From Zymomonas sp. (GTDB taxonomy: Bacteria > Pseudomonadota > Alphaproteobacteria > Sphingomonadales > Sphingomonadaceae): a DNA stretch of 13,893 nt. The translations under genes and the position numbers were made by a program. Location: positions 1 through 13,893 of the forward strand of contig JAIYAJ010000193.1 in assembly GCA_027489105.1 (NCBI GenBank). Direction: 5' to 3'. A model generated the notes under the pieces. That model did not search any database. It saw only the letters and a list, made by a program, of their open reading frames with translations, and had not been told where the DNA came from. Shown one piece after another: positions 1,271-13,893 of this stretch (the stretch's first letter is position 1; every line of letters begins with the position of its first letter).

Positions 1271-2884
1271 TCATTCGGCCACCGGCAGCGTCAGCACGAA
1301 CCTCGCCCCTGCGCCGGGGGCGCTGTCGACGCCGAGTTCGCCGCCCATCGCGCGGGCGAGGCGGCGGGAGATGTAGAGGCCGAGGCCGCTGCCGGTGCCG
1401 TCGTGCAGGCCCAGCCGCTCGAACCGGTCGAAGATGCGCTCCTGGTCCTCGGGAGCGATGCCCTCGCCTTCGTCGGCGACGATCACGGCGGCGATGTCGC
1501 CTTCGCGGGCGCAGTCGATGCGTACCGTCCCGCCGGGCGGCGTGTGGCGGATCGCGTTGCTCAGCAGGTTGATCAGGATCTGAAGAATCCGGCGGAAATC
1601 GCCGTGCGCGACGATGGGCGAGACGGTCGGCGATGCGGACGGGTCGGGAATCGGCCGCCACTGTGCCGCCATCGGCCCGGACACGCCTCGGTGCGGGGCG
1701 GGGCGCGGAGTGCCGTCGTTCTGGGCTGCAGGATCGCCTGCCATGGCCGCCGGTGCCGCTGTCTGGTCGGGAGACGGGGAGGCGATCGGCGCTGCCGCAG
1801 GGGGCTGCGCCGCACCCGCCGACAGGGTTGCCGCGACGAGCGCCGGGGCCAGCGCAGGCCCACGCTGCCAGGCGGGGCCGATCACGCGCACCTGCGCCAG
1901 GTCGGCGCGCACAGCGAGCAGGCCGGCGGCGCGGGCGGCGGCGTCGATCAGGTCGACCGCCTCGGTTTCCGGTCGGAAATCGGGGCGCTCGATCGTCTGC
2001 AAATCGACCAGATCCTCGACCAGCGCGAGCAGGTGGCGGCCGGCCCCCGCGATATCCTCGGCATAGCTTGCATAATCGCGCCGGACGGGACCATCGCCGC
2101 GATCGGAGATGCTGTCGGCATGGGCGATGATCCGGTCGAGCGGGTCGCGCATCGCCCGGCCTAAAGCCGTGCCGAAGGCCGCGTCGAGCGGCGGCGGATC
2201 GGTGCGTCCACCGGCGCCGATGGCGTTAAGCGGGCGCGGGGCGTCGCGGCGGCTGATCAGCAGCTGATAGCCGGCAAAGCCCCCGTTCGTGCCGAAGCTG
2301 GGGACGCCCGCGACGCGCACCGCCACGCCGGGGCCGAGCAGGAAATGGGCCTCGCCATCCTCGAACCGGTCGGCGCGCATTGCCGCCGCCACGATCGAGG
2401 ACAGCCCCTCGGCATCGCGGCCGAAGGACAGGAGCGTTTCCACCGGTGCGCCGATCGTCGCGGGCAGGTTGGGCGGGCTCTGCGCGATGCGCAGCGTGGC
2501 GTCGGTCTCGACGATCCAGTCGGCGGCAGCGCGGCCGAAATCGCGCCAGCGCATCGCTTCGATCGCGGGGGCGGGCTGCGATGCGACATTCTCCTGCCAG
2601 CCGGTGATGGCAAGGATGACGCCGTCGCTATCCTCTGCGGGGCGCACCGACACCCACAAAGCGACATCCTGCTCGCCGCTCGCGGCGATAACCTGCCGCG
2701 CGATCGGAATGCCCAGCCGACGCGACAGCCGCGCAATCTGTCCCAGCTGGGGCACGGCGATCGTCCCGCCGGCGACGCCGCCCGCCTGCTGGTGCAGCCG
2801 CAGCAGCGGAGGATCGGCCTCCACCAGGCGCCCCTGCGCGTCGACCTTGCCGAACACGGGCCGTACGCCCTGCGGAGCGTTCAT
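1271..2884 (-). CDS. Histidine-kinase-like sensor protein lacking the usual phosphoacceptor His (537 aa)
   Basis: The C-terminal part is a typical HATPase domain: N box INLLSNAIRHTP (about 438-449), G1 box DEGEGIAPEDQ (471-481), an F-box-like stretch IFDRFERL (484-491) and G2 box GTGSGLGLYISRRLARAMGG (496-515). Residues 110-215 look PAS-like. The dimerisation helix is recognisable at about 236-300 (LGRAMRDPLDRIIAHADSI, then HLLALVEDLVDLQTIER), but where HisKA proteins have H-E-L-R-T-P-L this one has R-A-M-R-D-P-L, so Arg243 (codon 2156-2158) replaces the phosphorylated His. An Ala/Pro-rich insert of about 75 residues (350-425) separates this helix pair from the ATPase domain. No membrane segments are seen, so it is probably cytoplasmic. 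The frame is open upstream to 3202, but ATG 2884 is chosen because it overlaps the DUF2336 stop as ATGA and the upstream part is an arginine-rich shadow. It may bind ATP without passing on phosphate, or be phosphorylated elsewhere. Confidence 0.85.
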   Translation of the reverse strand: MNAPQGVRPVFGKVDAQGRLVEADPPLLRLHQQAGGVAGGTIAVPQLGQIARLSRRLGIPIARQVIAASGEQDVALWVSVRPAEDSDGVILAITGWQENVASQPAPAIEAMRWRDFGRAAADWIVETDATLRIAQSPPNLPATIGAPVETLLSFGRDAEGLSSIVAAAMRADRFEDGEAHFLLGPGVAVRVAGVPSFGTNGGFAGYQLLISRRDAPRPLNAIGAGGRTDPPPLDAAFGTALGRAMRDPLDRIIAHADSISDRGDGPVRRDYASYAEDIAGAGRHLLALVEDLVDLQTIERPDFRPETEAVDLIDAAARAAGLLAVRADLAQVRVIGPAWQRGPALAPALVAATLSAGAAQPPAAAPIASPSPDQTAAPAAMAGDPAAQNDGTPRPAPHRGVSGPMAAQWRPIPDPSASPTVSPIVAHGDFRRILQILINLLSNAIRHTPPGGTVRIDCAREGDIAAVIVADEGEGIAPEDQERIFDRFERLGLHDGTGSGLGLYISRRLARAMGGELGVDSAPGAGARFVLTLPVAE

Positions 2885-4086
2885 CTGCGGCGGCCGCCTT
2901 CGCCGATCTCGATAACCGCGCGGCGATAATTGGGGTCGAGCCGCCAGATCAGCACGGCTTCGGCTGCCTGACGCTGGCTCATTCGGTCGAACGCCTCGGC
3001 GCGGGCGACGATCTCGTCCTCGGCCACGCCCTCGGCCGATCCGAGGCGGTACAGCATCGTCACAGCGGCCGCCCGATCGCAGTCGATCGCGCGCAGGATC
3101 GTGCCCAGCATCAGCCCGTGCGGATCGGTCACCATCGACCAGACGCCGGTCGAATCCATCCCTGCGCGCTGGGCGATCGCAGCGGTGAACAGCGCCAGCC
3201 ATCCCTCCTCCAGCGCGTCGACCAGCAGCCGGTCGTCGATCATGTCGCGGTCGTACAGCAGTTTCGCCAGAATGTCGGCGCGCGCCTCCAGCGTGTCGGC
3301 ATCGTCATGTTCGGCGAGCAGCCCGCGCACCGCGCCCGCCATCAGAAGGTCGGCGCGGGGTTCGGCCATGCCCTGCCGGTCGACCAGATAATGGCGCAGC
3401 GCCGCCGCCACGGCCCAGAGCAGCTTGCGATGCGGGCCGGGCTGCAGATCGGTGCGGGCGAGCGCCGGATCGCCGAAGGCGTCATAGCGGCGGCTCTCTG
3501 CCACCAGCAGCGCCATCGTCGCCTCCGCCAGCACGGCGTCGCCCTTGTCGAGCAGCCGCTGGGCGAGGTCCGCGACATGATAGGGCGAATCGCGCCCCAG
3601 CATCAGCGCCAGGCGATGTTCGTCGACCCGACGGAGCATCGCGGCGACCAGGTCGGGCTCGCGCAGCAGCGGGGTTGGTTCGAGAAGCGGCAGGGCGATC
3701 GGGGTGGTGGCGGAGCCGAGCTGCGCGATCAGCACGGCGTCGGGCGTGGCCTGTGGCGGGGCGCGGCGCGCGTCGTGCGGCCCGCGTGCCGCGGCCCCAT
3801 CCGATCCAGATGAAAATCCAGTATTATTAGGGAGATAACCGCTCTCTAGCGCACCGATCAGGCGGACGCGCAGCTCGTCCTCGATCGCGCCGATCAGCGC
3901 GCGGATCAGTTGCGCGATCTGCGCGCGATGCTGGTCGGACAGGGTTATGGCGCTGTCGTGGAACAGGTCGCTGGCGGCGCGGCCGACGCGGCTTTCGACG
4001 CTGTCGAGCGCGCGCGCAGCGTCATGCAGCCACCGCGTTGCCGCGGGCTGCCCCTCCGGCCGCCACTCGTCGTCCAACCCCATCAT
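2881..4086 (-). CDS. DUF2336 domain protein (401 aa)
   Basis: An all-helical soluble protein with the look of alphaproteobacterial DUF2336 proteins: a run of short amphipathic helices resembling HEAT-type repeats, such as LLYDRDMIDDRLLVDALEEG and WLALFTAAIAQRAGMD, and the C-terminal stretch RMSQRQAAEAVLIWRLDPNY. The biochemical role of the family is unknown. Starts are ATG at 4086 or the adjacent ATG at 4083; no strong ribosome binding site is visible. The 42-bp gap to the upstream gene is AT-rich and could hold a promoter. Its stop overlaps the start of the kinase-like gene (ATGA, 2881-2884), so the two are probably translationally coupled and may act together. An internal linker (coding bases about 3790-3845, LPNNTGFSSGSDG) is much more AT-rich than its surroundings. 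Family call is fairly confident; function unknown. Confidence 0.78.
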   Translation of the reverse strand: MMGLDDEWRPEGQPAATRWLHDAARALDSVESRVGRAASDLFHDSAITLSDQHRAQIAQLIRALIGAIEDELRVRLIGALESGYLPNNTGFSSGSDGAAARGPHDARRAPPQATPDAVLIAQLGSATTPIALPLLEPTPLLREPDLVAAMLRRVDEHRLALMLGRDSPYHVADLAQRLLDKGDAVLAEATMALLVAESRRYDAFGDPALARTDLQPGPHRKLLWAVAAALRHYLVDRQGMAEPRADLLMAGAVRGLLAEHDDADTLEARADILAKLLYDRDMIDDRLLVDALEEGWLALFTAAIAQRAGMDSTGVWSMVTDPHGLMLGTILRAIDCDRAAAVTMLYRLGSAEGVAEDEIVARAEAFDRMSQRQAAEAVLIWRLDPNYRRAVIEIGEGGRRR

Positions 4087-4128
4087 GCGTCGTTCGTATC
4101 GAAATGTCGTTAAATCGAAGCTAAACGA

Positions 4129-5397
4129 TCAATCCTCGCAAGCACTTGCGCTCTTCCACACCGCCCGGAAGCGTTCGAGGAAGGATGCCATGGCATAGGC
4201 CGCAAGCGCCGCGATCGCCCAGCGCCACCCGCCCAGCACAGCCAGGACAGGCGTCAGCCACAGTAGCGCATCCCCGCTGGCGGTCCAGAGCGGCGTCGGC
4301 GAAGCGCCAAGCGCGCGGACCACGGGGCGGAGCGCCGTCATGCCGCCCAGTGCGGCGGGCACCAGCAGCGCGATCGTCCACCAGCCCCAGCCCCCCGTCG
4401 CTGCCTCCTGCCGGGCGACCAGGCCAAGCACCGTGGCACCCGCCAGCATCCGCGCCAGGCCGGGCAGGAACTCGGCCGGTGCCTCGCTCCACACCAGCCC
4501 CATGCGCCGCGCGAGCGCCCCCCCGGCGGCCGCGATCGGCAGCAGCAGCACTGCCCCCCAGAAATAGCCGAATCCCGCCAGCAGCACCGCGAGCGAGGCG
4601 ACCGCCACCGATCCCCAGGCGACCTGCCGCTCGTCGATGCGCCGGACCATCGCTTGCGGCAGCAGCGGCGACGCGATCAGTCGGTGGAGGTGACGCTCGG
4701 CCCAGTTGCCGTCGACCCGCTCCGCCCGCCTGAACAGCATATGCTCGATTGCCGCCGTACCAGACAGGCCGGTCGCGATCACCGGGGGCGGGAGCGGCGC
4801 GCCTCCTTCGGCCGGGGGGCCGTCGGGGGCCAGCGCGGGGATGCGCTGCGCGTCGCCCTGCACCATTCGCCGCAGCAGGGTAGAGCCGAAATCCCAGTCG
4901 CCCAGCATGTTGGCGGTGGCGACCAGCATCGCCTTGTCGGTCACGGCATAGCCGGCCCAGCGATCCTCGGCGTCGATCCGCTCGAACGCCGCATGTTCGG
5001 GCATGTCCGGAAGCGCGAGGAGCGCGGGGCCGGATGTTTCGACCAGCGCGTCGACCGCCGCCTGCGCCGCGACCACGCCATCGGCGACCAGAAGTACGCG
5101 TTCGTCGGGATGGAAGCGGTCGACAGCGTCGCCCACGCTGCGCGCGATCTCGATGCGCAGGCCGTCGCGCCGCAGCCGGTCGATCGCCTGCGCCAGCGCG
5201 GCAGGCACGCGTTCGACGAGCACCACGACATGCGCGGCGCCGGCCCGGCGCGCGAGCCCGGCCTGATGTTCGATCAGCGTGCGACCGGCCAGCGGCAGGA
5301 CCGCGCGCAGCCCGTCACCCCTGTCGACCTGATCCTGCGCGGCAATCAGCGCGGCGAGCGGCAATGGACTCGTCCCCCTCGGCAAGCCGGTCGCCAT
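4129..5397 (-). CDS. Nucleotidyltransferase-like plus CDP-alcohol-phosphotransferase-like membrane protein, probably catalytically degenerate (422 aa)
   Basis: Residues 1-200 follow the outline of sugar-nucleotide/inositol-phosphate nucleotidyltransferases: LAALIAAQ, AVLPLAGRTLIEHQAGLARR, AAHVVVLVE and VLLVADGV. The AAGxGxR nucleotide loop is replaced by AAQDQVDRGDGLR, and the usual lysine before the leucines is missing. Residues about 229-243 (DGNWAERHLHRLIAS) recall the DG-x-SR-x-NRPIS junction before the membrane domain of bifunctional IPCT/DIPPS-type enzymes. About five hydrophobic segments follow (260-395). Where CDP-alcohol phosphotransferases carry DGxxAR with further Asp residues, this protein has IAAAGGALARRMG (288-300), with no Asp. 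I infer a degenerate, possibly regulatory or lipid-binding relative. ATG 5397 is used; a TTG at 5421 would add eight residues, and neither has a clear ribosome binding site. It sits 85-110 bp after the Hpt-like gene and 42 bp before DUF2336, on the same strand. Confidence 0.6.
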   Translation of the reverse strand: MATGLPRGTSPLPLAALIAAQDQVDRGDGLRAVLPLAGRTLIEHQAGLARRAGAAHVVVLVERVPAALAQAIDRLRRDGLRIEIARSVGDAVDRFHPDERVLLVADGVVAAQAAVDALVETSGPALLALPDMPEHAAFERIDAEDRWAGYAVTDKAMLVATANMLGDWDFGSTLLRRMVQGDAQRIPALAPDGPPAEGGAPLPPPVIATGLSGTAAIEHMLFRRAERVDGNWAERHLHRLIASPLLPQAMVRRIDERQVAWGSVAVASLAVLLAGFGYFWGAVLLLPIAAAGGALARRMGLVWSEAPAEFLPGLARMLAGATVLGLVARQEAATGGWGWWTIALLVPAALGGMTALRPVVRALGASPTPLWTASGDALLWLTPVLAVLGGWRWAIAALAAYAMASFLERFRAVWKSASACED

Positions 5398-5506
5398 AGG
5401 GGGAAAAGGAGGATTCTGCAAAGCCGATCATGGCTCGTCCCGTCCCCTTTCGGGCCGGGTCGAGACGGCAAGGCGGCGGCCGGTTGGGAGACTGGTGGGC
5501 GGTGCC

Positions 5507-5803
5507 TCAGCGGCGGCAGTCGGCCAGGCTGCAGGCGAGCCGGTCGAGCAGCTCCGCATCGGGAGCGGACGCCGCAGCCTGGGCGGCCTGCTCCGCCAGT
5601 TCGACCAGACCGAAGCTTGCGGCAAGCCCCTGCAGGCGCAGTGCCTCGTCGCGCCAGGCGGCGGGGGAGGGTGGCTGCGACATGGCGGCGAGATGCTGGG
5701 TGGCCGAGGCGAGGAACAGCGCCCGCAGATCGGCCGCAACCATGCTGTCGGGGCCGACGGCGTCGGCGAGAAGGCGGTCGAGCGTTCCTGGGTCGATGGT
5801 CAT
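5507..5803 (-). CDS. Hpt-like helical protein lacking the phosphorylatable His (98 aa)
   Basis: A small all-helical protein of the size of a single Hpt (histidine phosphotransfer) domain. The core segment ALRLQGLAASFGLVELAEQA (54-73) aligns without gaps with the Hpt signature AHxLKGxAxSxGLxxL, but the His position is Leu55 (codon CTG, 5639-5641) and the following Lys is Gln58. It therefore cannot act as a classical phosphorelay intermediate at that site. ATG 5803 is chosen because it starts just before the first helix (MTIDPGTLDRLLADAV); the frame runs open upstream to 6256, but that lies inside the divergent coiled-coil gene. The ribosome binding site is weak. It is the first gene of a leftward group that includes the kinase-like protein, itself without its His, which suggests a shared non-phosphorelay role. 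A purely structural helical bundle is the alternative. Confidence 0.65.
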   Translation of the reverse strand: MTIDPGTLDRLLADAVGPDSMVAADLRALFLASATQHLAAMSQPPSPAAWRDEALRLQGLAASFGLVELAEQAAQAAASAPDAELLDRLACSLADCRR

Positions 5804-5885
5804 GTCGCCATCAACGCCCGCAGGCGTAAAGATTTCGTTACTGCGGGCTATGCCGCGACTCGCGATTCCTGTAGGGGATAGGCCC
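5804..5885. promoter_or_regulatory. Divergent promoter region with a dyad (5817-5847)
   Basis: This 82-bp gap separates the leftward Hpt-like gene from the rightward coiled-coil gene and must hold both start regions unless one is transcribed from further away. Inside it, CCCGCAG (5817-5823) is the inverted complement of CTGCGGG (5841-5847), and TAA (5827-5829) pairs with TTA (5838-5840), giving ten paired bases with a 3-base bulge. It could be an operator shared by both genes or a transcript hairpin. A purine-rich aggggatagg (5873-5882) in front of ATG 5886 serves as ribosome binding site of the rightward gene. I do not see convincing -35/-10 boxes. Confidence 0.45.
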
Positions 5886-8339
5886 ATGGGGAAGGCACCG
5901 CATCCGCTGGATCGCTGGCGCGCCGCCAACGCGGCCGAGGCCGATGCCGTTCGTTCCGCTGCGACGCTGCCCAATGGAGAGGAGGCGGCCGCCGCCGCAA
6001 CTTCCGAAATCCCGGCCGACAGCGGCGAACTGATCCTGGGCGAAGGCGCGCGCGAGGATGCTCCGGCGCATCTCGATCCGGTTTCGTACATGCCGCGCCG
6101 TCGCGGTGCCGACATCGCCATCGGCGTGCTGTTCGGTGCGCTCGCGACCGGCTGGGTCGCGCTGTGGGTCGGCGGCGCCGCGCCCACGTCGGTCGACCTT
6201 GCTGCAATCGCCAATGGCGTGGCCCTGCTCAGCGGGCCGCTCGCCTTGCTCGGCATCCTCTACATCCTGCTTCAGCGCGGCTCGCTCCGCGAGGCGAAGC
6301 GCTTCGGCGACACCGCCCTGTCGCTGCGGGTCGAGGCCCGCCGGCTGGAAGAGGCGGTGGGCCGGATCACCGCCGTGCTCGACAACCGCCGCACCGACCT
6401 CGCCGGCCACACCAGCGCGCTGCTCGACGAAGGCAACCGCGCGGCCGAAAAGCTCCAGCAGATCAGCATGGACATGCGCGACGAGACCGATCTGCTCGCG
6501 CGCCAGACCGAATTGCTGCAGAATGCCGCCGGCGGTGCCCGCTCGGACATGAGCGGGCTGATGCTCGATCTGCCGCGTTCGCTCGACATGGTGAAGGAAG
6601 TGGCCGAACTGATCGGGTCGATCGGCGGCACCGCCAAGGATCATGCCGACGGGCTGTCGGAGGCGCTGTCGGCGATCGTCGCGCGCAGCCATGAGGCTGA
6701 CGAGATGATCGGCACCGCTTCGGGCCGCCTCGCGACCCAGATCGGCCGGATCGAGACTCGCGCCGAACGCACCACCCGCACGATCGAGGAAGCGGCCGCC
6801 TCGCTCGGCCAGACGATCGACGGCACGCTCGACAAGGCGATTTCCGCGATCGACCAGGTCGGATCGGGCATCGATGCCCAGCGTGAGGCGATGGCGGCGA
6901 TGATCGATCATGGCCGCGCCGCGCTGGACGAGGCGGGCACGGCCGCCGCCGCCTCGATCGCGCAGCGCCTGACCGAAATGGGCGCGATGGCGAGCGACCT
7001 GTCGCGCCAGCTGACCCGCCAGGACGAGGATGCCCGCCGGCTGGTCGCCAATCTCGAACATGCGCTGTCGGCGATCGAAAGCCGGTTCGAGGCGCTGGGC
7101 GCCACCGGCACCGAACAGACCGCCGACCTCGCCGAACTGGTCGTCACCCTCAGCGACCATGTCGACAATCTGGGCCAGGCGGTGACCAACAGCATGGCCG
7201 GCGCCCGCACCCTCACCGATCGCGCCAATGCACTGCGCATCGCGTTCGATTCGATCATCGCCAATGTCGAGCGCGACCTGCCGCAGGTGATGCACCGGGT
7301 CGAAGCGGAGGCCGCGCGCGGAGACGGCGTCATGCGCGCGATCACCGCGCAGGCCGAACAGCTGACCCAGACGGTCGAGCGTGCGACCGACCGGCTCGGC
7401 TCGGCCGACCTGCTGATCGACCGCCAGCGTGAGGCGATTGCGGGGCTGGGCGATCTTGCTGCCCGCCGTATGGCCGGCATCGCCGCCGATGGCGACGCTC
7501 TGCTCGAACGGCAGCGTGAACTCTCCGACGCCTTCGCCGAAGAGGCCAATGCCCGGCTCGAGGCGCTGCGCGACCATTCGAACGAACTCGCCCGCCTGAT
7601 CGCGGAGAGCGAGGGCAATATGCGCGCTCTGTCCGAATTGTCGGGCAGCAAGCTGGTCGACGCGATCCTCAAGGTCCGCGAAACCGCGAGCGAGGCGGCG
7701 CGTGGCGCGCGCGAGGCACTCGAATCGATCATCCCCGACGCCAGCGAGACGCTGGCGCGCAGCGGCGCCGAGGCGATCGAGCGCACCTTCGGCGACCAGA
7801 TCACCCAGCGCATCCACCTGATCTCCGACACCGCCGAGGCGGCGGTCGCTGCCGCCAATCAGGCGAGCGAACGGCTGATGCAGCAGATGCTGTCGATCAC
7901 CGAGGCTGCCGCGACGATGGAAAAGCGCGTCGCCGAGGCGGGCGCGACCCAGGAAAAGACCGACCAGGAAGCGATCAGCCGCGAGGTCGCCGTCCTCGTC
8001 GAGCATCTCAATTCGGCGGCGATCGACGTCACCAAGCTATTGTCGCACGACGTGCCCGACGGCGCGTGGAAAGCCTATCTTCACGGTGACCACGGCGCCT
8101 TCACCCGCGCCGCCGTCCGCCTGCTGCGGACCGAGGAGGCGCGGCGGATCGCGGCGCTTTATGACGCCGACGTCGATTTCCGTGGCCATGTGAACCGCTA
8201 TATCCACGATTTCGAGGCGCTGCTGCGCCGCGTCCTCGCCAGCCGCGACGGCGGGGCGCTGGCGGTGACGATGCTGTCGTCCGACATGGGCAAGCTCTAT
8301 GTCGCGCTCGCCCAGGCGATCGAGCGCCTGCTGGTCTGA
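5886..8339 (+). CDS. Large membrane-anchored coiled-coil protein of unknown function (817 aa)
   Basis: The N-terminal 70 residues are Ala/Glu-rich and probably disordered. Two membrane helices follow at about 75-97 ([20 protein letters not shown]) and 106-130 ([20 protein letters not shown]), with basic residues on both sides. Residues about 135-720 are almost unbroken amphipathic helix with Leu/Ile/Ala heptads, rich in Ala, Glu, Arg and Asp, reminiscent of the helical part of chemoreceptors or of Apolipoprotein-like domains. However, I see neither the conserved chemoreceptor hairpin tip nor a HAMP domain. A compact C-terminal part (about 725-817) has [20 protein letters not shown] and [19 protein letters not shown] and looks globular. 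The frame is open upstream to 5430, but that region is the shadow of the Hpt-like gene; ATG 5886 has a purine-rich ribosome binding site and meets the divergent gap. Likely a structural or scaffold protein of the inner membrane; that is inference. Confidence 0.8.
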
Positions 8340-8346
8340 TCCCGCC

Positions 8347-8365
8347 CGCGCGGCCCGGCCGCGCG
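8347..8365. repeat. GC-rich hairpin after the coiled-coil gene
   Basis: CGCGCGG (8347-8353) pairs perfectly with CCGCGCG (8359-8365) around a 5-base loop, ten bases after the stop of the coiled-coil gene. There is no T-run after it, so it is at best a weak terminator or an RNA-stabilising hairpin before ung. Confidence 0.4.
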
Positions 8366-8416
8366 TCGCTGCCCGCCGCTCTTGTTCCTCCGCTCAAGCT
8401 GCGCCACACAGCGGCC

Positions 8417-9115
8417 ATGGCCGACATCAAGCTGCACGAGAGCTGGAAGGGACCGCTCTCCCCCGAATTCGAGGCCCCCTATATGGCGGCGCTGCGCCAG
8501 TTTCTGATCGAGCAGCGTGCCGAGGGGCGGCGTGTCTTCCCGGCGGCGAGCGAATGGTTTCGCGCGCTCGACCTCACCCCGCTCGACAAGGTGCGCGTCG
8601 TGATCCTGGGGCAGGACCCCTATCATGGCCCCGGCCAGGCCCACGGCCTCTGCTTCAGCGTCCGCCCCGGCGTCCCGCCGCCGCCCAGTCTCGTCAACAT
8701 CTACAAGGAACTGCACAGCGACCTGGGGCTGGAACGCCCGGCGCACGGATTCCTCGAACATTGGGCGCAACAGGGGGTGCTGCTGCTCAACTCGGTGCTG
8801 ACCGTCGAAATGGCCCAGGCCGCCTCCCACCGCGACCGTGGCTGGGAAAAGTTCACCGACGCGGTGATCCGCCTGGTCAACGCGAAGAGCGATCCGGTCG
8901 TCTTCCTGCTGTGGGGCAGCTATGCGCAGAAGAAGGCGGCCTTCGTCGACAGCACCGACAAGGGCGGCCGCCACCTCGTCCTGAAGGCGCCGCACCCCTC
9001 GCCGCTATCGGCCTATAATGGCTTCTTCGGCTGCCGGCATTTCTCGAAGGCCAACGCCTTTCTGGAGGCGCATGGGATGCCGCCGATCGACTGGGCACTG
9101 CCGGCAGTGGGGTGA
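8417..9115 (+). CDS. ung: Uracil-DNA glycosylase, family 1
   Basis: Ung removes uracil from DNA by cleaving the N-glycosidic bond, the first step of base-excision repair in the cytoplasm. All family-1 motifs are present and in order: [18 protein letters not shown] (65-82) with the water-activating Asp67 and uracil-stacking Phe80, [10 protein letters not shown] (122-131), [13 protein letters not shown] (161-173) and [18 protein letters not shown] (193-210) with catalytic His193 and the DNA-intercalating loop. The length of 232 residues is normal for the family. ATG 8417 is the obvious start by homology, though no clear ribosome binding site precedes it. It stands alone, 77 bp after the coiled-coil gene and convergent with the peptide cluster. 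It marks ordinary chromosome at the left side of that cluster. Confidence 0.97.
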
Positions 9116-9143
9116 GGGGAGCGTTAAAGGAGGACATTGCAGG

Positions 9144-9272
9144 ATGGCGCACCCCGTTCGAGGTTGCATCGATGTTCTGGGCCACCCGAATGTCGGCCAT
9201 TATAGTCTCGCATTGCCTCCGGGGCTTTCTCGACGAGGCTCCGAAACAGATCGCCTTCTGATGAGCAACTAA
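9144..9272 (+). CDS. Possible small ORF after ung (42 aa), doubtful
   Basis: A 42-codon ORF (MAHPVRGCIDVLGHPNVGHY at its start, TAA at 9270-9272) preceded by a good Shine-Dalgarno sequence, AAAGGAGGA (9126-9134), nine bases before the ATG. The product has no membrane segment or recognisable motif and matches no family I know. It fills the space between ung and the end of the cyclase gene on the other strand. It is listed only because the ribosome binding site is unusually good for this window; otherwise the stretch 9116-9279 holds nothing I can identify. Confidence 0.2.
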   Translation: MAHPVRGCIDVLGHPNVGHYSLALPPGLSRRGSETDRLLMSN

Positions 9273-9279
9273 CCGAGGG

Positions 9280-11196
9280 TCAGCTATTCCCGCCCTCATG
9301 CCAAGCGAGGAACCGCGCCATCTCCAGGCCGCGCGTCAACATCTGAAGATACTGGGCGCGTTGCCTCTGCGCCGACACCAGATCGCTCGGCCAGGTTTCC
9401 AGCAAAGACTGTAGCCGATCCAGATCCACTACCCGACTTGCCAGCGGCTTGGTGCGAAGCTGGGCGAGGTCCGCCAGCATGGCCGGTCGATGCGCCTTCA
9501 GGATACGGAACCAGTCGCCGTTCTGCACGCCCCGAGCCCTGCTTTCGACGATTTCAGGAGGGAGCCGGCCTCGAAGCAGGCGACGGGCAATCGACCGCGT
9601 TTCTCCATTTCTCAGAAACTGGTCCGGCGGCAGCGCTCCGAAGAAATCCACCACACGGCGGTCGGCCAGCGGTAGGCGGTGGTCGATCCCGGTTACGGCG
9701 CGTCGGATCGTCTCATCGTCCCGAGCAACCTCATCCTCCCAGACCCAGGCGCGGAGCGCTGTGATGGAGCGGTGGCCGCCGCCCGTGCGCATCCGATAGC
9801 GTCCGACGTCGAGCGCTTCTCCCAAACGCAAATCCGCCGCAAATTGCGGGTTGATGGCCGAATGGCTGGCCCAGGGTTCGGACGAGGACTGAACACGGCG
9901 CATGCGCCAAGCCAGAGGTTCCAGCGGACGCAATGCCCGCTTGGTCACCTGCCAGGCAGAACGACCCTCGACTTGCGACAACGCCCGGATTTCTCTGGCC
10001 AGACTCGCCCAGCGCAGGCCGGTCAGCATCATCGGCAGAAACGCCAGACCGCTCTCGCTGAAATAGGTATTCCCTAATTCTCCGCCAAGGCTGACGTTGC
10101 TGCCGAGGCGGGCCATGTGGCGATAGATGGGATAGAACCAGGCGACATTCTGAGGGGCGCGGCTTGGCTTTCCGCCCATCACATATGCGCGGAACGGATC
10201 GAGATCGTCTTGCTCCCGTTCGTCGCTTGCCACGCCGTGCCAGTCCAGCGAGGGCAAATGCCCGGCCAAGAGGCGAGCGCGGGGCGATTCGTCATGGTAC
10301 CGATCCGCAGTTGCTTCCGCGATGGCGCCAGAGGGGATTTTCGTCATCGCCAGATGTCGGCCCGGCGCTAGTTGGCGGGCTGCGCTTTCCACGATGGCGG
10401 CACTGTCGAGTCCGGCGGTCAGAAGTTGCGTGACCGGCCCTCGTGCCCGCAGCGCGTCTCCCACCGCCTGGTCGAGGATGTACCGGCCTTCTTCCTCATA
10501 GGCCTTGTCGGACGGACGGGTCAGGCTGCCAGGTTCCGGCGATTGCCAGTGCCGCGAAAGTCGCACAGTTTCGCGTGTCACTATAGCGAGATGTGCAATA
10601 GGGACACGGGTAATCGCGCGATACAGCGTCCGCGTCGGCGGCCCGAGATTCAGGATGAGGTGATCGGCAATCGCAGCGTCGTCGAGATCGCGGGGGATAT
10701 CCGGCAGCGCCAACAGGGCACACAGGCGGGTTGAAAAAGCGACGAATCTCTCATTGCGATGCAGGTATAGTGTGCGGCTACCGCAATGGTCGCGGAGCAG
10801 AACCAGCCTGCGCCCGGCAGGTTCCCAGATGGCGGCTGCGAAGTCGCCGAGCAGCCGGGAAACACAGTCCGGCCCCCATCGGTCGAACGCCGCCAGAATC
10901 AGGGCGCCATCTGGCGAGGAGCCATTTTCCAAGCCCAATTGCCTGGCAAGTTCACGGCGATTATTCAACCGGCAATCGGCGACCAGCCTATTCCCGGAGA
11001 GGCCGACCAGAGGCATGCGTTCGGCAAGATCTTCCGGGGTGAAGACATGCTGGCGATGGACGAGGCCGATCGCTCCATCATGCCAGAAACGCGAGGGTCC
11101 CACATTGTGACCGTCAAGGCCGGCTGCCATCCGCTTCAGATCGGATTGCGCCACCGACCGATCGTCAAAACGCCACAGGCCTGCAAAATCACTCAC
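9280..11196 (-). CDS. Asparagine-synthetase-like protein, probable lasso peptide macrolactam cyclase (C protein)
   Basis: A protein of 638 residues with both asparagine synthetase B domains. The N-terminal glutaminase-like domain begins MSDFAGLWRFDDRSV, so the catalytic Cys2 of true glutamine-dependent enzymes is absent, as in lasso peptide cyclases; it continues with LLGDFAAAIWEPAGRRLVLLRD (115-136). The AMP-forming synthetase domain has LLTAGLDSAAI (258-268), the pyrophosphate loop usually written SGGLDS, here with T-A for S-G. Later come YRMRTGGGHRSI and DHRLPLADRRVVDFFGALPP. In lasso biosynthesis this enzyme adenylates the side chain of ring Asp/Glu and closes the bond to the N-terminal amine of the core. 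The start is GTG 11196, the only sensible one after the in-frame TGA at 11223, with AGG 15 bases upstream. It follows the precursor gene by 24 bp in the same direction, which strongly supports the peptide-cyclase role over ordinary asparagine synthesis. Confidence 0.85.
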   Translation of the reverse strand: MSDFAGLWRFDDRSVAQSDLKRMAAGLDGHNVGPSRFWHDGAIGLVHRQHVFTPEDLAERMPLVGLSGNRLVADCRLNNRRELARQLGLENGSSPDGALILAAFDRWGPDCVSRLLGDFAAAIWEPAGRRLVLLRDHCGSRTLYLHRNERFVAFSTRLCALLALPDIPRDLDDAAIADHLILNLGPPTRTLYRAITRVPIAHLAIVTRETVRLSRHWQSPEPGSLTRPSDKAYEEEGRYILDQAVGDALRARGPVTQLLTAGLDSAAIVESAARQLAPGRHLAMTKIPSGAIAEATADRYHDESPRARLLAGHLPSLDWHGVASDEREQDDLDPFRAYVMGGKPSRAPQNVAWFYPIYRHMARLGSNVSLGGELGNTYFSESGLAFLPMMLTGLRWASLAREIRALSQVEGRSAWQVTKRALRPLEPLAWRMRRVQSSSEPWASHSAINPQFAADLRLGEALDVGRYRMRTGGGHRSITALRAWVWEDEVARDDETIRRAVTGIDHRLPLADRRVVDFFGALPPDQFLRNGETRSIARRLLRGRLPPEIVESRARGVQNGDWFRILKAHRPAMLADLAQLRTKPLASRVVDLDRLQSLLETWPSDLVSAQRQRAQYLQMLTRGLEMARFLAWHEGGNS

Positions 11197-11220
11197 GAAC
11201 GGGTCGGTGCACCTTAAAGA

Positions 11221-11373
11221 TCAGGATTGCGTAAATGTGCCATTTCCGTCGTTGCCCGTGGAAGAGGCGGTATGGGTTTGCTCAACCGGCAAGACCTTGA
11301 TTTCCGGCTTATTCCAAGGCTCCCGAACTTTAGCCTCGTTCATGGGGTTTTCGGTTTCACTGGTGTGATCCAT
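11221..11373 (-). CDS. Lasso-type RiPP precursor peptide (50 aa)
   Basis: A 50-residue peptide with leader MDHTSETENPMNEAKVREPW followed by NKPEIKVLPVEQTH. The stretch W-x-x-P-x-I-x-V-L-x-x-x-Q-T matches the recognition pattern of paeninodin-type lasso leaders, where Thr is the second-last leader residue. Placing Thr33 at -2 gives the core TASSTGNDGNGTFTQS (35-50), 16 residues, with Asp42 at core position 8, a normal acceptor position for an 8-residue ring, and a C-terminal Ser50. Thr as first core residue is uncommon; cleavage one residue later (Ala first, 7-residue ring) is the alternative. ATG 11373 is chosen because GGAAGGAG (11381-11388) lies seven bases upstream; the frame is open to 11490 and a second ATG is at 11343, neither with such a site. 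Neighbouring cyclase, kinase and sulfotransferase genes support it. The lasso product is inferred. Confidence 0.78.
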   Translation of the reverse strand: MDHTSETENPMNEAKVREPWNKPEIKVLPVEQTHTASSTGNDGNGTFTQS

Positions 11374-11543
11374 CAGGTTTCTCCTTCCAAGCAAAGCACT
11401 TTGCGCCGGTTCATGTCGAACATCCAGCAAAAAGCCTTTTTTTGGGAAAGGTACGTCCGATGCGATCCGATTCACGGACGTCACCCGCATTTGGATGGCG
11501 GCGCGACATTCTCGCAGTGGGTGGGGTAGCGTGCCAAAACACC
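11374..11543 (-). promoter_or_regulatory. Leader region of the precursor-cyclase pair with an inverted repeat
   Basis: The space between the sulfotransferase terminator and the precursor gene is AT-richer than its surroundings and probably holds the promoter of the precursor-cyclase unit. ACGTCCG (11453-11459) and CGGACGT (11475-11481) form a perfect 7-bp inverted repeat with a 15-bp spacer, about 80 bp before the start codon, a spacing suited to an operator or activator site. A run of seven A followed by GGC and five T (around 11429-11443, - strand) lies between it and the gene. The ribosome binding site GGAAGGAG is at 11381-11388. I could not pick out a convincing -35/-10 pair. Confidence 0.4.
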
Positions 11544-11546
11544 TTT

Positions 11547-11575
11547 AAAAGCGCCTTGTTTCAGCGTGAAGCGCT
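11547..11575 (-). terminator. Possible terminator after the sulfotransferase gene
   Basis: Read on the - strand, AGCGC overlapping the stop codon (11575-11571) followed by TTCA pairs with TGAA and, after a 5-base bulge, with GCGCT (11554-11550), ending in TTTT (11550-11547). The 9-bp stem is interrupted by the bulge and the T-run is short, so it is a weak candidate. If it works, kinase-sulfotransferase and precursor-cyclase are separate transcripts, or the precursor pair is made in excess. Confidence 0.4.
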
Positions 11576-12428
11576 ACGGTGATGGTGTGGACAGGGTGCC
11601 ATCCTCGCCATAGCCAAGGCGCGCCATCATTTTATGATGGTCGCTCCAAAGACGATCGATCTGCATCGGGCTGAGGCTCTGCTTCCAAGCACCCGACCGC
11701 CCTTGGCGAAAGAACTTCTTCTGGTCGCGTACACGTTCTCTGAATCCCTGTTGGGCTTCAGCAGCACGCAGACTTTGAAAGGATGTGGCGGTGACAGCGT
11801 CTTCCACCAGGGCGGCATTAACAGGAAGCCCAGTGAAGCGGGCCAGAGCGGTCAAGGAGGCAGCTGGTTCCGCCAACATATCTTCATACCGCAAGAGCAA
11901 CTTTGCACCGGGGGCGTCCAGCCAGGATTGGACATTGGCGGACCAGCTTTCCAGACGCTGAAGGCTGTGGCTGCTTTGATGCATGCCAGCCAGGCCCATG
12001 GCGAAATGGGCGCCGCCCATTGCCTTGATCGCGTCATCGAGTTCGACGCCCATATGGTCGGCCCAGGAGGGGGCCACGTCGCGTGGGTCACGGACGATCA
12101 GGACCGTTCCCGCGCACGACACAGGGGCGAACAAGGAGGCGGAATAGGCGTCATGGACCTTGAGGAAAGCTGGGCCTGGAGTAGTCTCGGCATATAGTCT
12201 GCAGGCCTCCGTACGCATCAGCGACTGTTCCGTCGGCGTCATGTGGCCGAGCGGGAGGTCCAGCATATCTTCCATCCAGCCCAGGGCGGCGGAATTCGGG
12301 CACAGTCCGGCGGCCCGGGAAAGATCGGGCAGGCGACCTCCGTTTACCAGGCAGGCAAGCGCGATGCGCACCCATGTGTTCCCGGACTTGGGATAGGAAG
12401 CCAGCCAGTGAACGCCGCGCGCCTCCAT
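11574..12428 (-). CDS. PAPS-dependent sulfotransferase, probable RiPP tailoring enzyme (284 aa)
   Basis: Sulfotransferases of this family move a sulfuryl group from PAPS to a hydroxyl or amine in the cytoplasm. All diagnostic motifs are present: the 5'-phosphosulfate loop SYPKSGNTWVR (11-21), LKVHDAY (89-95) with the likely catalytic base His92, the 3'-phosphate motif VRDPRDVAPSWADHMG (112-127), RYEDML (180-185) and the C-terminal FFRQGRSGAWKQ (239-250) that binds PAPS. The length of 284 is typical. Its ATG overlaps the kinase TGA (ATGA, 12425-12430 region), so the two are translationally coupled, and it precedes the precursor gene in the same direction. The likely substrate is therefore the peptide product, whose core is rich in Thr and Ser and has no Tyr; this is inference from context. 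A small-molecule or glycan substrate cannot be excluded. Base composition is clearly lower in GC than ung or the coiled-coil gene. Confidence 0.88.
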   Translation of the reverse strand: MEARGVHWLASYPKSGNTWVRIALACLVNGGRLPDLSRAAGLCPNSAALGWMEDMLDLPLGHMTPTEQSLMRTEACRLYAETTPGPAFLKVHDAYSASLFAPVSCAGTVLIVRDPRDVAPSWADHMGVELDDAIKAMGGAHFAMGLAGMHQSSHSLQRLESWSANVQSWLDAPGAKLLLRYEDMLAEPAASLTALARFTGLPVNAALVEDAVTATSFQSLRAAEAQQGFRERVRDQKKFFRQGRSGAWKQSLSPMQIDRLWSDHHKMMARLGYGEDGTLSTPSP

Positions 12429-13384
12429 CAGCCGGCTACGCTTTCCACGAGCGAGACGACCTCCTGCAATGCTTCGAAGCGCTTGGGGTGCAGCAGACGG
12501 TAAATGGGTAGCTTTGACACGATCCGCGCCGTCGTTGCGAAAAGCCGCTTATGTTGACCGAGGGCGGCGGCGACCTTCTGTTGGGGGATGTACGCCTGGA
12601 TTGCGGGGAAGGCAAAGGCCGGCGTCAGCTTCGTCAAGCTGGCCTGCGTGGCTTCCCCCAATATGACGATGGTGTCGGGTGGCAGCGGTCTCAGGTCGAA
12701 GCCTCCCTGCGGCTCGACGGCGTATTTCTCGATCTGGCCGCGTAGCTGCGGCAACCCTGATATGCTGATCGTGGCAGCGTCCAGCGCGCTTCGCCACAGA
12801 TTGAGACGAGGGAACGCCGGCACGATTTCCAGATGGCGATGCCGGTCACGGATGGCTGTTATCTCGTCGGACAGCACGGGATGCCCGCGTTGATTGAGAG
12901 CATGGGCGAGGGTCGACTTTCCGGCCCCCGATGCTCCAGCGATGACGATGGCCTGACCGCCAACGCGTAAAGTTGCGGCGCGCAGCGGGAACACGCCTCG
13001 CTGATGACACAGATACCCCAGGACGATGCCGAGGAAGAACAGGTGCCAGCTGCCCGGCTCTTCACGCTTCATAAGGTCAACCGTTACACGAGATCCATCC
13101 TCGATGAGGAAGCGCTGGCGATCGGCAATGTTCAGAAGAATGGTGCCCGCAGGATCGACCATGACGTAGCGGCTAAGTCGCTGCGCTCCGCCGAGCCATT
13201 CCGGCACGACCCCTTCCTCAACGAATATGTCCGGCGGACGGTCGTCGCCAGCGGGCCAGCGGACCAGTTCCGGGATGGGCAGTGCGCTGTGAACGCGCCA
13301 GCCGCACAGGAAATAATCATCATGCATCTTGGTTGCGGCCGGTGTCACGCATTGCTTCTCCGCGCAATCCCAGACGCGCAGCAC
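12428..13384 (-). CDS. HprK-like P-loop kinase, probable lasso peptide kinase (318 aa)
   Basis: Related to the kinase domain of HPr kinase/phosphorylase but without that enzyme's usual N-terminal domain. Visible are GYLCHQRGVFPLRAATLRVG (123-142), the Walker A loop AGASGAGKSTLAHAL (149-163), VLSDEITAI (170-178), where most relatives have SDD, and VPAFPRLNLW (188-197), a signature of kinases found in lasso clusters. Characterised members next to lasso cyclases (the paeninodin kinase and relatives) phosphorylate the side chain of the C-terminal Ser of the precursor; here the precursor ends in Ser. The start is GTG 13384, six bases after a perfect GGAGGA (13391-13396); ATG 13327, without such a site, would give a protein starting MHDDYFLCGWRVHS, where relatives usually begin. 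It is the first gene of the cluster and overlaps the sulfotransferase by ATGA. Confidence 0.85.
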   Translation of the reverse strand: MLRVWDCAEKQCVTPAATKMHDDYFLCGWRVHSALPIPELVRWPAGDDRPPDIFVEEGVVPEWLGGAQRLSRYVMVDPAGTILLNIADRQRFLIEDGSRVTVDLMKREEPGSWHLFFLGIVLGYLCHQRGVFPLRAATLRVGGQAIVIAGASGAGKSTLAHALNQRGHPVLSDEITAIRDRHRHLEIVPAFPRLNLWRSALDAATISISGLPQLRGQIEKYAVEPQGGFDLRPLPPDTIVILGEATQASLTKLTPAFAFPAIQAYIPQQKVAAALGQHKRLFATTARIVSKLPIYRLLHPKRFEALQEVVSLVESVAG

Positions 13385-13400
13385 AACACGTCCTCCGCCC
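13385..13400 (-). promoter_or_regulatory. Ribosome binding site deciding the GTG start of the kinase gene
   Basis: On the - strand GGAGGA (13396-13391) is followed by six bases and GTG at 13384, an ideal arrangement. A short inverted repeat GCCCT-GAA-AGGGC lies just upstream (13402-13414). The remaining stretch to 13583 contains no gene I can support and presumably the cluster promoter, which I cannot pinpoint. Confidence 0.5.
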
Positions 13401-13583
13401 CGCCCTGAAAGGGCAAATGGCCCGCTGGCGCCTTCGGACCGGGGTGCAGGGCGAGGCTGTTGACGTTCGCCCTATTGGCCGTAGCGCGGCCAGCCGGCCG
13501 GCGGCCATGAACTCAGGGCGGGGCTGTGGCGTGAGATGTCCGGCTTCTCTTCCCCGGAGCCCTAAATTCTCTGGTCGACGGGG

Positions 13584-13763
13584 GTGGGGCCGCTCATCGC
13601 GCTGGCTGCCTGGTTGCCGCTTGCCCTGAAGCGGCTTCCGCTGTCATTGCCGATCATCTGCATCGCCATCGGCGCAACGATCGTCCTGCACGGACTGACC
13701 GTCACGCCCGTCATGCGCTCGCTCGACAGCCTGAACGGTCGCGACCCCGATGACGCGGGTGTA
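13584..13763 (+). pseudogene. Internally deleted Na+/H+ antiporter remnant
   Basis: The + strand frame reads GPLIALAAWLPLALKRLPLS followed by LPIICIAIGAT, which resembles the first membrane helix of CPA1-type sodium/proton antiporters. It passes without a break into IVLHGLTVTPVMRSLD and NGRDPDD, which resembles the extreme C-terminus of the same family. The several hundred residues in between, with all transport helices, are missing; the junction lies near 13675-13682. There is no ATG, only GTG 13584 in a poor setting, and the frame then runs without a stop into the antisense of the next gene. I read it as a deletion scar of a once complete antiporter gene. The family call is from motif memory and is moderate. 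A functional micro-protein with one hydrophobic helix is the less likely alternative. Confidence 0.5.
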
Positions 13764-13783
13764 GGCGCGGCTGGTTCCGGACC

Positions 13784-13893
13784 TCAGGCCGCCCGATCCA
13801 GCAGCGGCCCCATCGCCACGATATCCCCCGCGCTGAAGACCATCTGGCCGGGGGTGTCGCCCTCCACGCCGTGGAAGAAGAAGGGGGTACCGA
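13784..13893 (-). CDS. C-terminal 35 residues of an unidentified protein (5' end outside window)
   Basis: Read from the window edge, the - strand frame gives GTPFFFHGVEGDTPGQMVFS followed by AGDIVAMGPLLDRAA and TGA at 13784-13786. Composition and codon use fit a real high-GC chromosomal gene, and the sequence looks like the end of a compact soluble domain. I do not recognise the family and see no link to the peptide cluster. It is convergent with the antiporter remnant. If it is an ordinary chromosomal gene, the cluster ends before it. Confidence 0.5.
   Translation of the reverse strand, partial: GTPFFFHGVEGDTPGQMVFSAGDIVAMGPLLDRAA

Follow-up and report, generated by a model that had tools for sequence, protein, structure and literature searches.

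In the window, by which we mean the whole 13,893-nucleotide stretch of DNA that was analysed, four genes with the marks of a lasso peptide locus lie together on the minus strand, within a segment that is missing from the same site of the relative G311. The features are as follows.

12428..13384, minus strand: HprK-like kinase, K (ORF; GTG start at 13384)
11574..12428, minus strand: PAPS-dependent sulfotransferase, ST (ORF and Pfam)
11221..11373, minus strand: lasso precursor, A, 50 aa (ORF; leader with WNKP, Thr at -2)
11224..11271, minus strand: predicted core TASSTGND-GNGTFTQS (limits deduced from Thr(-2) and Asp8)
9280..11196, minus strand: asparagine-synthetase-like macrolactam cyclase, C (ORF and Pfam; PP-loop motif TAGLDS)
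9114..13507, no strand: islet, DNA missing from the same site of G311

Transcription runs in the order K, ST, A, C, and all four ORFs are intact. ORF, Pfam and NCBIfam analyses confirmed the one-strand quartet of the original prediction, with its precursor, Cys-less cyclase, HprK-like kinase and PAPS-type sulfotransferase. The spacing, described there as ATGA overlap or short gaps, needs amending: K and ST do overlap, by 1 nt, but the junction is TGATG, and gaps of 200 nt and 24 nt separate ST from the precursor Met and the precursor from the cyclase respectively.

Window positions 1871–9113 align with G311 at 87.7%, and the match resumes at 13508, with 72 nt between the two in G311. The 4.4-kb islet has a GC content of 61.9%, compared with 70.0% in its left flank, and was probably gained by horizontal transfer. 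A plasmid origin was considered and rejected: a plasmid collection yielded no match at the DNA level, and protein matches there were 38% or lower. To the right of the islet (13508–13893), an antiporter-like gene, whose name is guessed from its sequence, matches G311 in two pieces that lie about 1 kb apart there, implying an internal deletion in the window gene relative to G311.

The cyclase matched Pfam Asn_synthase (E 1.6e-30), and its best NCBIfam model was the lasso cyclase NF033535, at 273 bits and under the cut-off of 525. Residue 2 is Ser, so that the protein lacks the N-terminal Cys that glutamine-dependent asparagine synthetases have, as we require of a lasso cyclase. ST contains the Pfam Sulfotransfer_1 domain (PF00685; E 3.8e-23, 82.6 bits against a cut-off of 22) and retains YPKSGNTW, H92, R113, S121 and the FFRQGxxGxW region, conserved motifs that we take to be PAPS-site residues; domain and site residues together mark it as a PAPS sulfotransferase. 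Its closest solved relatives by sequence are TEG12 (E 3.7e-15), Teg14 and StaL. NCBIfam returned no match for either ST or the precursor. For K, the Pfam match to Hpr_kinase_C (E 7.4e-6, 26 bits) falls under the cut-off of 33.3, and the best NCBIfam match, HprK_rel_A, reached 35.6 bits against a cut-off of 200. Comparison with P0122–P0130 suggests that an ATG near 13327 is a likelier start than the GTG at 13384. The Walker A motif is GASGAGKST, and K has both the P-loop (GxxGxGKS/T) and the HprK-like C-terminal part of a lasso kinase, albeit with scores under the curated cut-offs; the accompanying precursor has the C-terminal Ser that such kinases go with.

Precursor A ends REPWNKPEIKVLPVEQTH-TASSTGND-GNGTFTQS. 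It has a WxxP leader motif (WNKP) and Thr(-2), and its core carries Asp8 and ends in Ser; these features include the three anchors by which we recognize lasso precursors, namely [Y/W]xxP, Thr(-2) and an Asp or Glu at core positions 7–9. With its boundaries placed by Thr(-2) and Asp8, the core fits a predicted eight-residue ring closed on Asp8, followed by an eight-residue tail ending in Ser16. Cyclized but otherwise unmodified, it would have a mass of 1525.628 Da ([M+2H]2+ 763.821), to which phosphate would add 79.9663 Da and sulfate 79.9568 Da. Across seven aligned precursors, including those of Acidovorax, Xanthomonas and other K–ST loci, the leader Trp and Pro, Thr(-2), Asp8, Gly9 and the last Ser are invariant. 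A precursor profile search recovered 27 proteins with E values no higher than 1.2e-6, every one of which has Thr(-2), Asp8, Gly9 and the final Ser; these homologues with common anchors rule out a chance small ORF. The precursor P0254 (78%) lies on an 11,777-nt contig, as do the nearest other ST, P0002 (78%), and the kinase P0122 (82%), and the three are probably on the same contig.

We then asked how regularly kinase and sulfotransferase occur together. The ST alignment was used to scan one genome per species, and the best 80 of 566 confirmed stretches were analysed. K lay directly upstream of ST in 48 of these best 80 of 566 loci; 26 had no K in that position, five were cut at a contig edge and one, L025, had no scored ST ORF, though the local profile maps both K and ST there. 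A C, B1 or B2 gene accompanied 47 of the 48 K–ST loci, as against one of the 26 without K directly upstream (best 80 of 566). The co-occurrence of the quartet genes that had been proposed from this one sequence is thus supported well beyond this genome. The recurrent K–ST order, together with the 27 precursor homologues sharing the same anchors, confirms that the locus is a lasso-type quartet beyond chance.

A tree of 112 ST rows told the same story, splitting into two sides with support 100/100. On the kinase side, 55 of 58 rows have a K gene upstream; on the other, which has 54 rows, K was present in none of the 49 scored, five being unscored. The three kinase-side rows scored as lacking K are L126, where K and ST form one ORF, and L027, where K is 3 kb away, both of them soft cases, and L052 (Legionella erythra), which has no K in 20 kb and is a plain exception within the clade. 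The kinase-side records, several of them MAGs, are labelled Pseudomonadota, Chloroflexota, Verrucomicrobiota, Actinomycetota, Bacteroidota and Thermodesulfobacteriota. The window ST groups with those of Acidovorax and Xanthomonas (five rows, support 100/98), and not with the STs of the close relative G311. Sulfotransferase homologues parted from the other genes, which the original prediction had named as counter-evidence, amount within the clade of the window ST to L052, whereas distant STs do lack kinase and lasso genes. A general superfamily link between sulfotransferases and kinases can be dismissed, as the distant side of the tree is without kinase. At two loci, L062 and L080, at least eight sulfotransferase ORFs stand in tandem, accompanied by neither a kinase gene nor lasso genes.

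Among Sphingomonadaceae, this ST was found at E 1e-20 in 33 of 397 genomes, which gives 42 places in all. When ST and kinase places were matched by eye, using only strong kinase places beside ST, 41 of the 42 followed a same-strand kinase place and the 42nd preceded K, among the kinase matches listed. The kinase profile itself, at E 1e-8, matches 380 of the 397 genomes and must include ordinary HPr kinases. At 20 Sphingomonadaceae kinase places picked for having no ST, the local profile indeed found no ST; a C, B1 or B2 gene was present at 11 of these, while the other nine show no lasso gene in the stretch examined and some of them may be non-lasso kinases. Because STs follow K both in the clade and in the Sphingomonadaceae, while kinase places without ST exist, ST seems to depend on the K step and K to be independent of ST. 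This one-way dependence makes the order of the steps directly testable.

The B1 (RRE) and B2 (peptidase) genes by which we recognize a lasso cluster are missing here: local profiles and ORFs revealed neither of them in the window, nor a transporter gene. An overlooked B1 in the position that it takes in Xanthomonas and Acidovorax, upstream of K, was considered, and the local profile found none in the window. As regards precursor and cyclase, the compact lasso cluster first proposed holds; as regards completeness, it does not.

The relative G311, represented by a 4.33-Mb contig that is nearly a whole genome, helps to place this absence. It has three K–ST loci, L119, L120 and L121, and the local profile found no B2 in the 19-kb stretches around them; B1 was found in L120 and L121 and not in L119, which, as in the window, is an A–C–ST–K set without B genes. 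PF13471, the B2 family, matches G311 at two places only, L123 and L122, 179 kb or more from the K–ST loci. L123 contains K, C, A, B1 and B2 without ST, and has a polysaccharide pyruvyl transferase-like gene inside it; L122 is a lone B2-like protein of 391 aa, which may have another role. In G421, the sole PF13471 match is on a different contig from its two ST loci, and in G419 one of three matches lies some 5 kb away from an ST locus. Genomes G015 and G020 gave no PF13471 match at E 0.01, a model that may miss diverged B2 proteins. Because the islet lacks B2 and the K–ST loci of G311 have none nearby, the simplest reading of this comparison is that B2 probably acts in trans on the islet precursor. 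If B2 is shared in this way, cluster finders that demand B2 beside C overlook real lasso loci, and small quartets could spread between species.

Our preferred reading, to which we assign a probability of about 0.68, is that the 4.4-kb islet, probably horizontally gained, encodes a lasso quartet K–ST–A–C and borrows B1 and B2 from elsewhere in the genome. In the proposed pathway, the B1 protein would bind the 50-aa precursor through its WxxP leader, and K and then ST would modify the linear precursor. K would phosphorylate the C-terminal Ser, as characterized lasso kinases do, and ST, with PAPS as sulfuryl donor, would sulfate a tail hydroxyl, most likely that of Thr14, or else Ser16. The trans-acting B2 would then cut after Thr(-2)-His(-1), and C, judging from its motif and homology, would join Thr1 to Asp8, producing an 8+8 lasso.

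The step in this pathway that calls for most caution is the phosphorylation. The catalytic motif of K reads R135-K156-D173-E174, in place of the H-K-D-D of lasso kinases, in which mutagenesis, reviews and the BsfK study, as far as the available text of these sources goes, indicate that the His, the Lys and both Asp residues are needed (PMC9266682, PMC10368454). When the kinases were aligned jointly, 79 of 89 ST-paired sequences kept H-K-D-D in full (a fragment is among the ten that do not), as did 29 of 33 kinases not paired with ST and 117 of the 120 homologues of the window kinase listed. Arg occupies the catalytic His position in six of the 89 ST-paired kinases. The P0122 kinase, 82% identical to that of the window, has R-K-D-D, and the Arg common to both argues that it is not a sequencing error. 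Another homologue, P0121, labelled Rhizorhabdus sp. FW153, differs from the window kinase at one of 318 residues. Since Arg and Glu replace the His and the second Asp, phosphorylation by this copy of the kinase is doubtful on its sequence. The sphingomonad ST-paired kinases of L082/L119, L083, L085, L114/L120 and L115 also lack the His or the second Asp; such departures could reflect recurrent loss or a different mechanism.

The doubly tailored product that had been predicted is weakened accordingly in two respects, the R-K-D-E motif and the want of B1 and B2 in the cluster. The strongest of the competing explanations, which we consider a minority possibility to be taken seriously, is that the window kinase is dead or slow and has been retained as a binding partner of ST, so that the product is sulfated only. 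It would account for the altered motif and for an Arg that recurs in P0122 and other ST-paired kinases; the general conservation of H-K-D-D, among ST-paired kinases and listed homologues alike, speaks against it, as do the intact Walker A motif and first Asp of the window K and an ORF that is open and near full length.

To look for candidate modification sites, we assembled 54 cores from K–ST loci, hand-picked from the hits of regular expressions that did not require a final Ser, after dropping those that looked spurious. The last residue is Ser in 50 of these 54 hand-picked cores; before hand selection, a C-terminal Ser was present in 47 of 58 hits of one regular-expression set. The exceptions, L020, L070, L075 and L076, have precursors ending in Arg, Phe or Pro, and by analogy with BsfK, which modifies Ser3 according to the available text (PMC10368454), the kinase target may lie elsewhere in them. 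At the next-best tail position, 23 of the 54 cores have a hydroxyl residue, and ring positions reach up to 24 of 54; of the 22 nine-residue rings, 13 begin with a hydroxyl residue, a proportion exceeded only by that of the last Ser. Another tail hydroxyl besides the last Ser is available in 52 of the 54 cores. Neither these 54 K–ST cores nor the precursor profile matches have a second hydroxyl common to all, and sequence comparison therefore does not reveal which residue would be sulfated. Of the 23 cores that share G-[N/D]-D-G, the subfamily of the window, 22 have Thr14; this residue and Ser16 are the leading predicted sulfation sites of the window core.

The near-constancy of the C-terminal hydroxyl raises the alternative that ST has phosphoserine, or a group borne by it, as its acceptor, and that K and ST together build a composite C-terminal group. 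The dependence of ST on K, and not the reverse, would be explained, and there are precedents of a kind, in that lasso kinases can put phosphate on phosphate and in pseudomycoidin a further enzyme adds a hexose to the phosphoserine, according to the portions available of PMC9266682. We nevertheless think this unlikely: no enzyme known to do this emerged, a phosphosulfate on a peptide would be unstable, nearly all cores offer another tail hydroxyl, and the window kinase may be inactive. A broader version, in which the ST clade is an obligate lasso-kinase partner across six or more phyla, takes the kinase product as acceptor and so completes, together with the kinase, a sulfo-phospho group at the C-terminal Ser, and in which mobile sphingomonad B-less quartets share one trans leader peptidase, we hold to be equally improbable.

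It is also improbable that the locus is a decaying remnant that has lost B1, B2 and the transporter and makes no product. The absence of the B genes and the two odd kinase residues could be so interpreted, as could the loss of about 1 kb from the neighbouring antiporter-like gene relative to G311, but the four ORFs are intact, the precursor anchors are kept, G311 retains its own B-less A–C–ST–K set and two further loci without B2 nearby, and the only PF13471 match of G421 is likewise on a different contig. That K and ST are mere neighbours with different targets, for example one a peptide and the other a glycan or lipid, is the least probable reading, since they overlap or are separated by a small gap across six phyla and lasso genes accompany 47 of 48 such loci (best 80 of 566), even though the closest solved ST relatives sulfate small natural products and the cores have no invariant second hydroxyl.

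The preferred reading, a quartet that borrows its B proteins, can be set against several known systems. The SyanA/SyanK-type clusters of Sphingobium yanoikuyae and the paeninodin type (PadeK, ThcoK), as described in the available text of PMC8498205 and PMC9266682, resemble the window in having an HprK-like kinase beside a lasso cyclase, and precursors with a WxxP or YxxP leader and a C-terminal Ser; the window differs from them in the pairing of K with ST, in an islet without B1 and B2, and in the R-K-D-E motif. Lasso kinases of Firmicutes and of S. yanoikuyae phosphorylate, and even polyphosphorylate, the C-terminal Ser (PMC8498205, available portion). The same portion cites a putative, uncharacterized sulfotransferase gene in Firmicutes kinase-type lasso clusters (Zhu 2016, cited in PMC8498205); the combination has therefore already been pointed out for Firmicutes, and the pairing described here is not wholly new. 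That sulfotransferase gene is said to open the cluster, whereas in the window K and ST are adjacent, a distinction drawn by description only (PMC8498205, available portion). In gene tables for Pontixanthobacter, a lasso B2 protein, a PqqD protein and an asparagine synthase have two sulfotransferases in their vicinity (PMC10040529, available portion). We found no characterized sulfated lasso peptide in the available text of openly licensed PMC papers; if ST acts on the precursor, the locus would yield a lasso peptide that bears sulfate, a kind that we did not find described there.

Pseudomycoidin, like the window, ties a second tailoring enzyme to a phosphoserine kinase, but there it is a nucleotidyltransferase, with a hexose, and not a sulfotransferase. 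In Paracidovorax cattleyae (L001; 10849–12393, 12464–12997), K, ST, an NTP_transf_5 gene (PF14907) and B2 stand in a row, and the NTP_transf_5 gene possibly provides a third tailoring step on the same peptide. The glycopeptide sulfotransferases TEG12, Teg14 and StaL are kin of ST by sequence and differ from it in substrate; they act on glycopeptide antibiotics, not on lasso precursors.

The nearest comparison is with the K–ST clusters of Xanthomonas (L003, L005) and Acidovorax (L001, L002). B1 stands directly before K in all four, and B2 is present in L001, L003 and L005, whereas the window has neither. In Xanthomonas arboricola (L003; 7948–8706), a methyltransferase-domain gene (PF08242) lies between the precursor–cyclase side and B1–K–ST, and by likeness to L003 a methyltransferase gene lies in between in L005 too. 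These clusters contain the nearest ST clade to that of the window, and their core pattern is near-identical to that of precursor A, as in Xanthomonas maliensis P0247, whose core is NNATTGND-GNGTFTGS.
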